From the NCBI GenBank assembly GCA_023205875.1, contig CP060756.1:310001-374000 (forward strand): 64,000 nt of DNA, written 5' to 3'. The translations under genes and the position numbers were made by a program. The stretch is from Chloropicon primus (lineage: Eukaryota; Chlorophyta; Chloropicophyceae; Chloropicales; Chloropicaceae). Shown piece by piece: positions 10,516 through 20,003 of this stretch (the first letter of the stretch is position 1; the number at the start of each line of letters is the position of its first letter). Under the pieces are notes generated by a model. That model saw only the letters and a program-made list of their open reading frames with translations, was not told the origin of the DNA and ran no database searches.

Positions 10516-11283
10516 CCTTGTTGTGTTGGGTTGTCTTCTGATGTCTCCAAGACCACCTTTCACAGTCTCATGCTTGCCGCTGGCTATGTCAACCTTCTTG
10601 GGCACAACGTACAGACCTCACACAAGTTCTCGGTGGGTGGCACTTGTCCGGTTACGAAAACGAAGAGAGTCTGTCCAACCAATGGGCACCTATGAACCAC
10701 ACCTCCTCCCCCTGTGCTTGTCCTTCAAGTACGTTGTCTTCTCGCCCCTCCCAAGGCTTTGGAAAGGTAGCGCTCGTCAGTAACGTGAGCAAAGAACGCA
10801 GCCAGTGGAGACCTGTGAGCCACCGCCTCCAGTGTCCTTCAAGCGTGCTGCCCTGTCTACTCAAACGTGTTCCCTTTGCCAAGGAGCCCACGCGTCACGT
10901 GCTGGGGTATACGATTTTTTGATGATTCCCCTCCCCCCCTTGAGGTTGAAGAGCAAAGCAAGGTAACGGAAGGGAGACAGCCGTGCTGGAAGGGAGACAG
11001 CCGGGCAGGAGTGATGGAAAGAGAGAGAGGAGGGAAGTAAGATCGTTCTCTTTGTCATTCATTTGAGCAGTCTCTTGTGACAACCAACGCAGTGGCGAGG
11101 ATTTGAGGACCCGAACGTGGAGAAGGGAAGGAAGCTTTTCTGCGTCTTGAAAATCTTCTTGAAAATCTTTGAAAAGGAACCGAGGAGGAACCTTGGGGGT
11201 GCTGCTAGTGCACTTGGGATGCTCGAAGCAGGACCAATGGTCGTTGCTAAAGCCCCGAACACTTGATCCACGGTTTCTTTGAA
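10516..11283. other. Intergenic region with 3'-flank repeat, copy 1
   Basis: No gene is seen in 10516-11169. From about 11170 to 11283 lies the 3' flank of the repeat-protein gene. It is nearly identical to 14528-14620: the block running from GGGATGCTCGAAGCAGGACC to the stop codon differs at two positions only. Copy 1 carries an extra insert of about 18 bp (GGTGCTGCTAGTGCACTT). Confidence 0.8.
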
Positions 11284-13977
11284 TTAAGGCACGTGAACTG
11301 TCTTCGACATGCCATTACCACGAACACCGTCAGTCGGCCTGACCACGCCTTCCGCTTTCTTGGCCTTGACGGTCACGTCGTTGCGGTTTCCTCGAGCCAA
11401 GGCGCGGAGCCTGTTGCGATCAGATTTCTTGGCCTTGATGGTCACGTCGTTGCGGTTTCCGCGAGCCATGGCGCGGAGCCTGTTGCGACCCGATTTCTTG
11501 GCCTTGACGGTCACGTCGTTGCGGTTTCCACGAGCCATGGCGCGGAGCCTGTTGCGATCCGCTTTCTTGGCCTTGACGGTCACGTCGTTGCGGTTTCCCT
11601 CGGCCTGTGCCTCAACACGATTTTCGACAGCATTCTCATAAGCTGAAGCCTTCACTGTGTTGCCCTCACCACGAGCCACGGCATCAACGTCATTTATGAA
11701 AGCACGTTTAGAAGCACTAGCAGTCACTGTATTGCCCTCACCACGAGCCACGGCACCAACATCATTCATTTCAGCAGTCTCATAAGCTTCGGCAGTCACA
11801 TTGTTGCCCTCACCACGAGCCACGGCACCAACATCATTCATGAAAGCAAAATCATAAGCTTTGGCAGTCACTGTATTGCCATCACCACGAGCCACGGCAC
11901 CAACGTCATTCATGGTAGCAGTCTCAGAAGCTTTGGCAGTCACTGTATTGCCCTCACCACGAGCCACGGCATCAACGTCATTTATGAAAGCACGTTTAGA
12001 AGCACTAGCAGTCACTGTATTGCCATCACCACGAGCCACGGCACCAACATCATTCATGAGAGCAAAATCATAAGCTTCGGCAGTCACATTGTTGCCCTCA
12101 CCACGAGCCACGGCACCAACGTCATTCATGGTAGCAGCATTAGAAGAAAAAGCCGTCACATTGTTGCCCTCACCACGAGCCACGGCACCAACGTCATTCA
12201 TGGCAGCACCAGAATCAGCAGTAGCAGTGACTTTGTTCTCATCACCGCGAGCCACGGCATCAACGTGATTCATGTTAGCAGTCTCAGAAGCTTCGGCAGT
12301 CACTGTGTTGTTATCACCATGAGCCACGGCATCAACATCATTCATGAGAGCATCAGAAAAAGCAGAAGCCATCACTGTGTTGTTCTCACCACGAGCCACG
12401 GCACCAACATCATTCATGGTAGCGGTAAACTCAGCAGTTGCAGTCACTGTATTGCCCTCACCACGAGTCACCGCATGAACATCATTTATGGTAGCAGTCT
12501 CAGAAGCTTTGGCAGTCACTGTATTGCCATCACCACGAGCCACGGCACCAACATCATTCATGGTAGCAGCATTAAAAGAAAAAGCCTGCACTTCATTGCC
12601 ATCACCACGAGCCACGGCACCAACATCATTCATGGTAGCAGCATTAGAAGAAAAAGCCGTCACTGTGTTGCCCTCACCACTTGCCACGGCACCAACATCA
12701 TTCATGGTAGCAGTCTCAGAAGCTGAAGCCATCACTGTGTTGCCAACACCACTTGCCACGGCATCAACATCATTCATGGTAGCAAAATCATCAGCTTCGG
12801 CAGTCACTGTGTTGTCCTCACCGCGAGCCGCGGCACCAACATCATTCATGGTAGCAGTCTCAGAAGCTGAAGCCATCACTGTGTTGCCCTCGCCACGAGC
12901 CACGGCATCAACATCATTCATGGTAGCAAAATCATCAGCTTCGGCAGTCACTGTGTTGTCCTCACCGCGAGCCGCGGCACCAACATCATTCATGGTAGCA
13001 TCAGAAAGAGCAGAAGCCATCACTGTGTTGCCCTCGCCACGAGCCACGGCATCAACATCATTCATGTTAGCATGAAATTCAGCAGTTGCAGTCACTGTGT
13101 TATCCTCACCGCGAGCCACGGCATCAACATCATTCATGGTAGCAAACTCAGCAGCTGCAGTCACTGTGTTGTCCTCACCGCGAGCCGCGGCACCAACATC
13201 ATTCATGGTAGCATTCCCAGAAGCTTGGGCATTCACTGTGTTGTCCTCACCATGAGCCACGGCACCAACACGATTCATGTCAGCACCAATTTCAGCAGTT
13301 GCAGTCACTGTGTTGCCATCACCACGAGCCACGGCATCAACGTCATTCATGGTAGTAGCCAAATAAGCTTCGGCAGTCACTGTGTTGTCATCATCATGAG
13401 CCACGGCACCAACGTCATTCATGGTAGCACCAGAATCAGCAAAAGTCTTAGAAGCTTGAGCAGTCACTGTATTGTCGTCACCATGAGCCACGGCATCAAT
13501 GTGATTCATGTCAGCACCAACAGAAGAAGCAGAGACGGTGTTCCCCGAGCCGACAGCCGAAGCGCGGAGGTCATTGTCGTTCCCGCCGTCAGCCGTAGCA
13601 CTTGCGGTGGACGACGAACCTTTTGCTTCGCCCGTCAACATTCCGTCACCAGAAACCTCGGTCATGACGATCTCACCCGCACCACTCGTGGAGGCGGTGC
13701 TGCTGCCTTGAGCAGCGCCATCGGTGGTCATCGCCATGACCTCTGCTTTGGTGTCTCCGGCGTCGGCCTCAGCGGAGGCCATGAACGTGCCGCTGCCGTC
13801 GACTTCCGCCTTGCTTGTTTCGCTCGCGATGCCAATACCGCTGCTCCCAACGGTGCTCGCCTTGGACCTTCCGTAGCTGTGGGGCCTCCCCCACCTCTGG
13901 CCGTCCACAGGCGTGGCGGCGGCCACCACCACCACCACGGCCAGCCAAACGCACAACCACTCGACGTTCTTTTTCAT
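11284..13977 (-). CDS. Secreted beta-repeat protein with about 30 tandem 23-24-residue repeats
   Basis: 897 residues from the ATG at 13977; the frame is open about 18 codons further upstream but without ATG. A signal peptide is clear (MKKNVEWLCVWLAVVVVVAAATPVDG). A Ser/Thr/Ala/Gly-rich region of about 120 residues comes next, then about 26 repeats of about 24 residues with core MNDVGAVARGDGNTVTA. Four basic repeats with core RNRLRAMARGNRNDVTVKAKK end the protein. Alternating V/A positions flanked by N and G suggest a strand-turn-strand unit as in curlin or beta-solenoid proteins, so an amyloid-like or cell-surface fibre is my inference. The mature chain has no cysteine. At DNA level the units are 69-72 bp and often nearly identical, which points to recent homogenisation. 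No family recognised. Confidence 0.85.
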   Translation of the reverse strand: MKKNVEWLCVWLAVVVVVAAATPVDGQRWGRPHSYGRSKASTVGSSGIGIASETSKAEVDGSGTFMASAEADAGDTKAEVMAMTTDGAAQGSSTASTSGAGEIVMTEVSGDGMLTGEAKGSSSTASATADGGNDNDLRASAVGSGNTVSASSVGADMNHIDAVAHGDDNTVTAQASKTFADSGATMNDVGAVAHDDDNTVTAEAYLATTMNDVDAVARGDGNTVTATAEIGADMNRVGAVAHGEDNTVNAQASGNATMNDVGAAARGEDNTVTAAAEFATMNDVDAVARGEDNTVTATAEFHANMNDVDAVARGEGNTVMASALSDATMNDVGAAARGEDNTVTAEADDFATMNDVDAVARGEGNTVMASASETATMNDVGAAARGEDNTVTAEADDFATMNDVDAVASGVGNTVMASASETATMNDVGAVASGEGNTVTAFSSNAATMNDVGAVARGDGNEVQAFSFNAATMNDVGAVARGDGNTVTAKASETATINDVHAVTRGEGNTVTATAEFTATMNDVGAVARGENNTVMASAFSDALMNDVDAVAHGDNNTVTAEASETANMNHVDAVARGDENKVTATADSGAAMNDVGAVARGEGNNVTAFSSNAATMNDVGAVARGEGNNVTAEAYDFALMNDVGAVARGDGNTVTASASKRAFINDVDAVARGEGNTVTAKASETATMNDVGAVARGDGNTVTAKAYDFAFMNDVGAVARGEGNNVTAEAYETAEMNDVGAVARGEGNTVTASASKRAFINDVDAVARGEGNTVKASAYENAVENRVEAQAEGNRNDVTVKAKKADRNRLRAMARGNRNDVTVKAKKSGRNRLRAMARGNRNDVTIKAKKSDRNRLRALARGNRNDVTVKAKKAEGVVRPTDGVRGNGMSKTVHVP
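11430..13560. repeat. Coding tandem repeat, period about 72 bp (69 bp at the 3' end)
   Basis: The DNA under the protein repeats. Recurrent blocks on the + strand are CACCACGAGCCACGGC, ACCAACATCATTCATGG and GCAGTCACTGT. Some two-unit blocks recur (for example around 12760-12900 and 12880-13020), so expansion has occurred by pairs as well as single units. Confidence 0.9.
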
Positions 13978-14864
13978 TTTTTCATTTTTTTTCCAGTTGG
14001 TGTTGTTGTTGCTCGGCTCCGCAGCGGTCAACCACCGAGCGGCTTCTGCTCGCGTCGCTTCGCTCCCTCCCTCCTCTCCGTTCCGTTCCGTTTCCCTTCA
14101 CGAAGAGAAAAGCGCTTTCGACGGAGGGGTTCCCTTCCTGCGCGTCGTGTCGTTTCGTTGCGTTGTCGTGGACGCGTTCTCGTCCCCTCGTCCCCTCCCT
14201 CTCCCTCTGGTGGTCGCCTTCCTCCCCTCCTCCCCTCTCCTCTGCCCGGGCGTTAATTCTCTCGGGCCTCATCCGTTAGCCACGGAACCACAGCACTCGG
14301 GAATTCTCCTCGAACTTGGCGAACCCGAGGAGAGGAGAGGAGAGGAGAGGAGAGGCCTCGGGAGAGACGGGGACGGGGGTTGGGCAAGGAGAGAGACGAG
14401 GACGGAGGGAACCTCCTCCTGTCCTGTTGAGGAGATTCCTGCCCCGGTTTCGAAAGATCCGGCAGGAGCTGAAAGAGGGAATAACATGCATAAAAAAAGG
14501 ACAACTTTTGTGTGTACTTTTTGAACTTGAAAAGGAACAAAGGAGGAACCTTGGGATGCTCGAAGCAGGACCAGTGGTCGTTGCGAAAGCCCCGAACACT
14601 TGATCCACGGTTTCTTTGAATTAAGGCAACTCGGCTTCTGTGTTCCCTGTGCGATTACCACGAACAGGGGCAGGCTTGACCTCCTTGCCTTCAAGGCGGA
14701 GCAAGCAAGCAATAGGGGAACGGTGGGAGAGTTTGAAGGGGAGGAGGACGGGGGTTATGTTTGTTTCGACTAGATGATGAGGCACGTCTCAGGGATTCCA
14801 TTGCCGTCCATAAGATAGCTCTCTCGTGAGAAAGGTGAAAGTGGAGGAAGGATCAAGGTGTACA
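13978..14864. other. Region upstream of the repeat-protein gene
   Basis: Contains poly-T next to the ATG, a (GAGAG)n tract at about 14327-14352, the gene relic at 14528-14690 and the 5' region of the GT29 gene. No further gene is recognised. Confidence 0.5.
14528..14690 (-). pseudogene. Truncated relic of a second copy of the repeat-protein gene (3' end only)
   Basis: 14528-14620 is nearly identical to the 3' flank of the gene at 11284. It is followed by an in-position stop (14621-14623) and a short coding-like tail, EVKPAPVRGNRTGN, which aligns with VVRPTDGVRGNG at the end of the intact protein. No repeats are found beyond it. It is on the same strand as the intact gene and just upstream, so it is best read as the leftover 3' end of a tandem duplicate. 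The non-coding flank is better conserved than the coding tail. Confidence 0.75.
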
Positions 14865-17157
14865 ATGCCCACAAAAGCTATGAAGCGTAGGAGGCCCAAG
14901 AGGTAAGTCTCGTCCTTTTCGAGAGCACGATTCTCTCAGCTCGAGCTCTGGAATGATTCGGACATTCTGACTCACTCCCGAATTCTTTCTCAAATCGTCG
15001 GCGTGCTCTAGGCTCATCTGGTTTCCTGTCCTCCTCGGATTCTGCATCTTGACCGTCATTGTGGCAAGGGGCAACTTCTTAGGGCTTCAGAAGCTGGAGT
15101 CGGAGCTGAGTCACGTTGACTCCAGGCCCGAATCTTCTGTAATTCCTGAAGCCAAGGCAGAGGAACCCAAGGCAGAGGAGGTGAAGGAGGAGCGGCCCCT
15201 CATAGGAAAGGAGTTTGAGCAGACGGTCAAGTCGCAGTTCTCGGAGGTGTTCTCGGGCTCTTCAGCCAACTCGTCCAGCCTCGACAAGTTTTCTGAAAGG
15301 CTCTTCCATAGAGAGGTCCGGAGGATGGAGACCGAGCTGAAGAACGAGATGCAGAGGGAGACCTGGAAGCTTAAGCAGAAGGATGGGAAGATCAAGAAGC
15401 TCAAGGTCCAGAGGATTTTCGAGGCAGACGAGCTGGAGTATTACAAGGAGCGCCGGTCCAAGGACGCCAAGAGGGTACTGAAAGTGTTCTCATCAAGTGC
15501 CTTCGGCTGCATGGATACCGAGGGATGCAAGAAAGCGATGGAGTTTCAGATAAAAATGGATTTGAGTTTTGACGCCGATGCTTTTGCTGTTCCGTACGAA
15601 GAGCCTTGCATCGTTCAGGAGAATGGCACAGAAGTCGCCACCATGGAGAACTGTGATCAGAGCAAGAACGCCTTTGCACCTCATGACATGTGCTCGGTGG
15701 TAGGAAACAGCGGCGTGATGAAAAGATCGAACAAGGGCGTTGTCATCAACAAGTCGAGCGCCGTGTTCAGAATCAATCAGGCTCCAACTTCCGGCCACGT
15801 AGGGGACGTCGGCATGCCATTCTCAGGGGAGAAGAGAACCTACAGGGTGTTGAACAACGCTTGGGCTCAAATTTATGCTGGAATCTTCCACAACCACCGC
15901 CACTACGAGTTCAAGAGACTCCCGTTGGAGAAAAACTGCACGCTGATGCTCACGCGAAGCCAGCCTCACACGTACCTCGCGCTCGTCGAGAACCTCAGGA
16001 AGAACGGCAGGGAGGACGTAAAGGTGTATCAGATCTCTCAGAGCATGATGCAAAGGGCCAGGGAGGTCATGATAAACTACAGAATGCTCTCGGATCGAAT
16101 CGCAGAAATGGAGCACAGGTGGAAGCAGAACCAAGTCAAGGGAGGGACTACCCCTTCCACGGGTTTCGTGGGAATATTGCTCGCCAAGCGACTGTGCTCG
16201 CAAGTAAATGTGTTCGGCTTGAGCAAAGAGGCGTCAAGGGATAAATCGAGCTCGACCTGGTCTTACCATTACTTCCAGCACTCGCACAAGAACATTGATT
16301 TGCCTGCAGCGGAGCTGCGAGCCCATCCTCACCACTCTTTCAGGCTCGAAGGGGTAATCCTAAACCATTTCCTTGAGGCCGGGGTGGTCGCGCACGAGGA
16401 GTTAGGGGTGTCCCCCGCAGGTGGCCTCCCACTCGACTGGGGGGACTTTGGATCCGGATCCAAGGAGAAGAAGTCTGATCACACCTTTGGTTGCCCCGTC
16501 GTGAGAAAGCCTGATTCAGATTGCGGTGGCGGGGGGGAGAAACAAAGGGATGATGCCGAGGCCGCCGTAAAGGAGGAGCCTGCCAAAGTCTCGGTCTCGT
16601 CGGAGAAGAGTGAAATCGGAGAGGAGCAAGTTGTCGACTCTGGTTCGTCGAAGAGGGGTTTAGCTTCAGGGGATAGCAGCGGGAGACAAAGGAGCTCCAA
16701 GAGAGCCCCGAGCTCCAGAAGGACGGAGGAGCCCAGAGGGAGCGATGGGGCAAACGCCACCACCACCGAGACAAGGCGGGGGAGGAGCAACAACGGCAAG
16801 CGGAGAGTGAGGCAATCGACTCAGGTCATCACGAAAAGAAACCACGACAGGGCGAAGGCGGCCGTGCCTCGGGGTGCCACGCAGAGCAAAGAGCTCCAGG
16901 AGCTCGAAGAGATCTTGCGGGCTCAGGAGGAGCAGAATGAGAAGGCGAAGAAGGCGAAGAAGCCAGCGCAGAATCTGAAGCACACGCCTTTGGACAAGAT
17001 CAAGGATCCTGAGGTGCGCAAGAGGGAAGAGGCTTGGCGGGCTGAGGAGGCGAAGATGAGTGGCGCACAAATCGATGCCAACTGCCTGGCCAAGGGCAGC
17101 AGCGACCCTTGCTTCCAGCGTTGGATGAAGGGCGTCACCCGGGTCGAAAAGCAATAG
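14865..17157 (+). CDS. GT29 sialyltransferase-like Golgi glycosyltransferase with long charged C-terminal tail
   Basis: Two exons, 14865-14902 and 15012-17157, about 727 residues. Exon 1 encodes MPTKAMKRRRPKR, and the join gives a type II membrane anchor (LIWFPVLLGFCILTVIVARG). GT29 sialylmotifs are visible: L (CSVVGNSGVMKRSNKG with NQAPT, from about residue 239), S (GTTPSTGFVGILLAKRLC, about 390) and VS (HSFRLE, HxxxxE, about 453). After the catalytic domain comes a tail of about 265 residues, Lys/Glu/Ser-rich and partly coiled coil, that GT29 enzymes do not normally have. Acceptor and donor are unknown; plant and algal members need not be true sialyltransferases. Confidence 0.88.
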
Positions 17158-19617: not shown

Positions 19618-20003
19618 CTCCTTTCCCCTCCACGGCGGTCTCTTTGGCCTTCAACTTTGGCTTGGCCTTTGGCTTCAGATATCGTACCCTGACCTTTGCC
19701 TTACGTTGTGCCCTTGCCCCTCTCCCCTTGCCCTTCCTCTGCCCCTCTTGCCTCCTTCCCCTTGGCCTCCTGGCACCTTTGATCTCCTTTCCCCTCCACG
19801 GCGGTCTCTTTGGCCTTCAACTTTGGCTTGGCCTTTGGCTTCAGATATCGTACCCTGACCTTTGCCTTACGTTGTGCCCTTGCCCCTCTCCCCTTGCCCT
19901 TCCTCTGCCCCTCTTGCCTCCTTCCCCTTGGCCTCCTGGCACCTTTGATCTCCTTTCCCCTCCACGGCGGTCTCTTTGGCCTTCAACTTTGGCTTGGCCT
20001 TTG
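19618..20003. repeat. 166-bp tandem repeat, about 2.3 copies
   Basis: Copies begin at 19618, 19784 and 19950 (CTCCTTTCCCCTCCACGG). They are almost identical over 166 bp, and the third stops within TTGGCCTTTG at about 20003. Because 166 is not a multiple of three, the open frames that run through it shift from copy to copy, so I do not call it coding. The array is strongly pyrimidine-rich on the + strand. Confidence 0.9.

Follow-up and report, generated by a model that had tools for sequence, protein, structure and literature searches.

The closest described counterparts of the protein considered here are the bacterial curlins CsgA and CsgB (PF07012) and the CS class of curlins, e.g. R15.5 of Pontibacter korlensis, which according to PMC10192328 combine a leader peptide with repeats sharing the kernel N1-x-Psi3-x-Psi5-x-Q7-x-G9-xx-N12-x-Psi14-x-Psi16-x-Q18. 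Curli fibres are described there as beta-solenoid units stacked end to end, and R15.5, one of whose sheets is predicted to carry an acidic grid, is reported to form single rods as well as side-by-side arrays and to become encrusted in calcium buffer, for which its authors propose divalent-cation bridges (PMC10192328). R15.5 shows that rods of the curlin kind can bear grids of Asp and Glu. The word stem "eukaryot" is absent from the main texts of PMC10192328 and PMC3521004. We describe here a gene of the green alga Chloropicon primus, at 11284-13977 on the minus strand of a 64,000-nucleotide stretch (the window) of contig C3 in an assembly of 17,584,162 bases and 20 contigs. It encodes a repeat protein with a predicted leader peptide and the exact spacing of the curlin kernel, which resembles a curlin in its working and yet lies outside curlin membership.

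The open reading frame (ORF) runs from ATG to stop over 897 codons plus the stop and needs no intron. Between residues 158 and 897 its self-identity at a lag of 24 residues is 0.547, against 0.103 +/- 0.011 in shuffled sequences (n=1000, maximum 0.133); since this exceeds all 1000 shuffles, the 24-residue period is far above chance. The acidic rungs number 27 in total, one of 23 residues (135-157) and 26 units from residue 158 that measure 23-29 residues, 24 in most. An earlier note on this DNA had placed the frame here and counted about 26 acidic and four 23-residue basic units, all of which the ORF and a unit scan confirm. That note had also called the units curlin-like in their strand-turn-strand alternation, and this is borne out by an algal kernel of N1-x-V3-x-A5-x-A7-x-G9-xx-N12-x-V14-x-A16-x-A18 (consensus unit N-D-V-G-A-V-A-R-G-D-G-N-T-V-T-A-x-A) whose spacing is exactly that of the published curlin kernel. 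A skeleton pattern that admits N or S at position 1, widens the hydrophobic class by M and G and leaves positions 7 and 18 free matches the 897-residue protein 30 times (shuffle mean 0.23, maximum 2) and each of five other intact copies in the genome 17-62 times (shuffle means 0.06-0.23 over the six copies), while E. coli CsgA, the positive control, gives 5 matches.

Conservation and charge can be followed position by position along the unit. When the 24 columns are ranked by entropy over 109 distinct 24-residue units, the nine kernel positions take the nine lowest places, one of 1,307,504 possible sets, from which the analyst's choice of register takes a factor of at most 24. The unit finder itself fixes residues at positions 1, 3, 5, 9 and 12; among the 19 columns left free, kernel positions 7, 14, 16 and 18 are the four of lowest entropy (1 of 3876 sets). 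Charged residues fill 2 of 972 places at these free inward positions and 741 of 1701 at the outward strand positions 2, 4, 6, 8, 13, 15 and 17; with the finder-fixed positions included the counts become 2/1944 inward and 1068/2187 outward or in a turn, the free positions being the basis relied on for the contrast. The pooled ratio of replacement to silent differences (pN/pS) among distinct units is 0.17 at ten core positions (a set that includes position 22, outside the nine kernel positions), 1.65 at positions 17, 19-21 and 23, and 1.30 in the other outward columns, values that draw on non-independent pairs and are descriptive, not a test of selection. Asn12 is encoded by AAC in 63 units and AAT in 46, and the use of both codons suggests that it is the protein rather than the DNA that has been kept. 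The period, pN/pS and entropy analyses cover units of 24 residues (137 units, 109 of them distinct in DNA), with units of 23, 25 and 29 residues, each array's final unit and the 5' piece of a broken copy left out. Successive unit starts lie 23-25 residues apart except for one spacing of 29 in the C3 copy and a false start in the C10 copy (spacings 11 and 13), and no inner unit was thus skipped. Family-wide counts of 243 unit starts, 188 acidic units and 56 units with a GNRN turn, used below, take in pieces of the broken copy, and the totals 243 and 188, like that of 19 for C10, are each one too high on account of the false start.

The algal protein shares with the curlins a 22-24-residue unit with similar halves, a variable number of repeats, the spacing of N1, hydrophobic 3 and 5, G9, N12 and hydrophobic 14 and 16, and charged outward faces, which in R15.5 are acidic (PMC10192328). 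It differs in having Ala or another small residue instead of Gln at positions 7 and 18, in being eukaryotic, in its separate 108-residue N-terminal region and Arg-ladder C-terminal block, and in the length of its copies, 549-1614 residues compared to up to 529 for curlins (PMC3521004). Gln stands at both 7 and 18 in all skeleton matches of CsgA (5/5) and CsgB (3/3), but at neither position in any of the 243 algal unit starts. The PF07012 profile (Curlin_rpt) has no match in the whole genome at an expectation value (E) of 10 or less, whereas the control genomes of E. coli and Haloferax volcanii do match, one of the two above the cut-off. Because Gln is absent at 7 and 18 and PF07012 is unmatched in the genome, the protein is not a curlin by family signature. 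PF07012 is likewise not among the hmmscan matches of the 897-residue protein at E <= 10, and hhalign gives probabilities of 0.04% and 0.3% against CsgA and CsgB with a curlin profile built from those two sequences only.

No relative was found outside the Chloropicon primus genome in the searches made, in keeping with the statement of the earlier note that no described family has this unit. Against 5.8 billion protein sequences the whole protein gave zero matches at E <= 0.001, residues 1-180 gave zero at E <= 1, and an alignment of ten family stretches gave one weak match (E 0.9, 18% identity); these searches scored only candidates with short words in common (7986, 7191 and 7994). Genome contigs yielded 136 pattern matches to the repeat alignment and 109 to the N-terminal region, and viral contigs 62 to the repeat alignment, none of them relatives. 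A sequence search of the PDB found no match, and NCBIfam and PHROGs gave chance-level matches only (E 0.22 or worse). The sole Pfam match is DrrA1-3_C (PF13732), at 8e-10 and above cut-off over 65 residues of the repeat. That family is described as the C-terminal domain of ATP-binding DrrA proteins and resembles the repeat in its alternating small and hydrophobic residues; as the best match lies wholly within the repeat array and no ATPase family matches the protein at E <= 10, membership is rejected and the match is judged a coincidence of periodicity. Open-licence literature on Chloropicon, amyloid, curli in eukaryotes or algae, solenoids and adhesins does not describe the family among the matches listed, and within that literature no paper joining Chloropicon with amyloid was found. 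Most species-specific orthogroups are reported in PMC12301720 to be hypothetical proteins.

Seven family loci are spread over four chromosomes: C3 carries the present gene, C13 a tandem trio (305-317 kb), C8 a pair (104-112 kb) and C10 a single locus (41-43 kb). Frames are intact at six of these, with 549-1614 codons, although unit number varies; the seventh, the middle C13 copy (L030:334-4016), is broken into 5' and 3' frames of 372 and 871 residues between stops and is a pseudogene, an allele or an assembly error. The six intact genes carry 12-58 acidic rungs (a tally in which the C10 count is one too high) and 4-13 Arg-type rungs, 17 to 62 in total, always with the acidic rungs first and the Arg-type rungs last; in the broken copy a single Arg-type unit lies within the acidic array. 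Unit order differs among the seven loci, tandem arrays and relics are present, and homology among copies reaches past the genes into the spacers. Upstream of the C3 gene, 14550-14628 is 97% identical to 11213-11291 and pieces of 14365-14681 are 84-90% identical to the flanks of other copies, a pattern suggesting that a second family copy was probably once present at the C3 locus. Identical decayed single-unit relics, flanked by stops, lie inside a longer similar stretch on C5 and C15 (L035 near 1451, L036 near 1225).

The charge polarity that the earlier note had described along the chain stands for the C3 copy, at net -67 over residues 158-785 against +20 over 786-877. The strongly basic block, however, is a feature of some copies only, and an Arg ladder is the more constant element. 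Arg-type units have a mean charge of +5.0 in the C3 copy and +5.5 in the longer of the two C8 copies, against +1.7 to +3.2 at the other five loci, where most Lys positions have become Glu, Val or Ala and the Arg positions are largely retained; net positive charge is therefore rejected as the conserved C-terminal feature. Among 56 units chosen by the GNRN turn alone (the separate Arg-type tally used a pattern fixing several positions), Arg precedes N1 in 49 and occupies position 2 in 56, position 4 in 43 and position 8 in 54, while on the other strand position 17 is shared among Lys (20 units), Glu (23) and Val (13). What the C-terminal block keeps constant across the family is thus its first-strand Arg ladder. 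Of the 188 acidic units, 133 have Asp and 37 have Glu at position 10, and 157 have Arg at position 8; the tripeptide RGD, found in the strand-to-strand turn of 122 of these units, is taken as a by-product of the turn.

At the other end of the chain a signal peptide was called by eye, with no signal-peptide program used, and hydropathy agrees: the top 19-residue windows begin at residues 6-8, and past residue 40 none exceeds 0.83. The protein is accordingly predicted to be secreted, as the earlier note had proposed, and its single cysteine lies inside the signal peptide, with none after residue 26, so that the mature form is, as that note also said, free of cysteine. A reading of the N-terminal region as a degenerate rung array finds no support, its best unit score of -25.1 (residues 27-133) being close to the shuffle mean maximum of -25.8.

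The best explanation, to which as a whole we give an even chance, is that of a rod in the extracellular wall or coat, built as a curlin-type beta-solenoid with its Arg block as a glycan anchor; the solenoid fold taken alone is probable. Each 23-24-residue unit would form one rung of a two-sheet beta-arch solenoid on the curlin skeleton, with Asn 1 and 12 and Gly 9 shaping the two turns and Val, Leu or Ala at 3, 5, 7, 14, 16 and 18 (some C-terminal units having Thr at 18) making a thin core. Backbone hydrogen bonds would stack the rungs into a rod whose length would be set by unit number, the shaft being acidic along a turn edge and hypervariable along an edge of residues 17, 19-21 and 23, and the end consisting of rungs with the Arg ladder on their first strand. 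Such rods may be located in a layered wall or outer coat, a layered wall being reported for the alga's class in PMC5656628. There the Arg block could bind acidic wall glycans, while seawater Ca2+ and Mg2+ could bridge or screen the acidic shafts.

The structure prediction that the earlier note had suggested returned a beta-solenoid for the real frame (AlphaFold2, predicted local distance difference test score, pLDDT, 88.2), but a meaningless antisense frame was also folded into a confident solenoid (pLDDT 85.5), with one alignment row for this control and three for the real frame. Because the antisense frame scores nearly alike, the model proves little and leaves the matter undecided. The control was the longer of two plus-strand frames that are also open across the array (window 12265-13075; 153 and 195 codons). 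Against the evidence from conservation counts the N-terminal region, where silent changes are not in excess across the seven loci; from the corresponding C-terminal comparison of non-synonymous to synonymous rates (Ka/Ks) the six rows for the C3 copy were left out, its tail being one residue longer and out of register.

A disordered secreted polyampholyte, in which a low-complexity acidic spacer carries a basic anchor and the alternation merely reflects an easily expanded codon pattern, would fit a protein that is rich in Ala, Gly, Asp and Asn, highly charged and recently expanded. AlphaFold2 is moreover reported to make unrealistic solenoids of repeats (PMC11795689), an over-prediction that the antisense control reproduces. 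This alternative nonetheless seems unlikely to us, for the near absence of charge at free inward positions (2/972) and the least variation exactly at the curlin core positions have no evident reason in a disordered spacer. We regard as similarly improbable a true curlin-type functional amyloid, secreted unfolded and polymerised end-to-end into fibres of cross-beta type, where Ala zippers would replace the Gln ladders. The kernel spacing and near-symmetric core are those of the CS-class curlins, and curli fibres are themselves end-to-end stacks of solenoid units (PMC10192328); against it stand the lack of Gln at 7 and 18 in 243 of 243 unit starts and the possibility that the N-terminal region, the charged C-terminal rungs and the low-confidence tail cap the ends. 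Plant and other ice-binding beta-solenoids are made of NxVxG-type repeats and resemble the algal protein in their Asn ladder, alternating Val and short stacked rungs. Thr-x-Thr ladders on the second strand (NTVTA) could serve ice binding, and T13-x-T15 occurs in 15 of the 27 acidic units of the C3 copy. The algal N-to-N spacing, 11 and then 12-13, is unlike that of the ice-binding proteins, however, and across the family conservation of the outward Thr face is lacking: 41 of 188 acidic units have it, and 3 of 58 in the longest copy. Ice binding was rejected on this ground. The strain RCC138 is moreover listed as Pacific, with 22.75 in an apparent latitude column (PMC5656628), and this alternative is very improbable.

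A variable surface adhesin or mating-recognition coat, in which the solenoid would serve for display and selection would act on the hypervariable edge and on copy number in cell-cell, gamete or virus interaction, is doubtful yet has somewhat more to recommend it. The replacement-to-silent ratio passes 1 at positions 17, 19-21 and 23 (1.65) in units whose core hardly varies, and the seven loci differ in unit order and are accompanied by tandem arrays and relics. The next gene found upstream of the C3 copy, divergent at 15049-17157 (+), is a GT29 sialyltransferase gene (PF00777, 6.4e-29), and PMC6731263 reports for the sister strain CCMP1205 59 sialyltransferase genes, most of them silent or low in expression in the cultures studied, from which it raises the possibility of a scaly or sexual phase. 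On the other side, the pooled ratio is descriptive only and the other outward columns also reach 1.30; GT29 is absent from all eight chosen ORFs scanned in the C13, C8 and C10 flanks, and the neighbourhood is for that reason weak evidence.

If the fold of the wall or coat rod holds, curlin-like beta-arch rods would not be bacterial only, and Gln ladders, thought central to curli packing, would be unneeded for the rung. The family would then offer a natural way to tell the residues that build a solenoid from those that build an amyloid. It would further be a candidate for a structural or recognition role at the surface of Chloropicon, a genus of importance among marine phytoplankton, and its fast-changing repeats would suit the study of unit shuffling. 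A bolder and rather unlikely version is an "Ala-zipper curlin", i.e. a eukaryotic curlin-type fibre that has kept the turn residues and the packing and has no Gln ladders. It would form polar filaments outside the cell, with a length encoded in the gene, an acidic shaft bridged by ions and an Arg ladder that anchors one end, and one exposed edge would be diversified by unit shuffling among the seven genes. Were this true, the curlin rung would be either a convergent invention or a remade ancient bacterial gift.

Table 1. Features of the C3 locus in window coordinates
Feature	Position	Strand	Basis
Predicted secreted curlin-like repeat protein, single open frame	11284..13977	-	ORF reading
Predicted signal peptide, residues 1-26	13900..13977	-	by eye and hydropathy
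N-terminal region, residues 27-134, non-repeat, near-identical at all seven loci	13576..13899	-	
First rung, residues 135-157 (NDLRASAVGSGNTVSASS...), 23 residues	13507..13575	-	
Acidic array, residues 158-785, 26 units, mostly 24 residues, net charge -67	11623..13506	-	
C-terminal Arg/Lys array, residues 786-877, four 23-residue units, turn GNRN, net charge +20	11347..11622	-	
20-residue tail, residues 878-897, alike at the end of all seven loci; pLDDT < 50	11287..11346	-	
Relic: 3' end and spacer of a lost upstream family copy	14365..14681	-	similarity to other copies' flanks

The Pfam-matched neighbours of the C3 copy are NOT3, RING-variant and GT29 genes. Elsewhere in the window, at 19618-20003, lies a tandem repeat of 166 bp in 2.3 copies with 100% matches.
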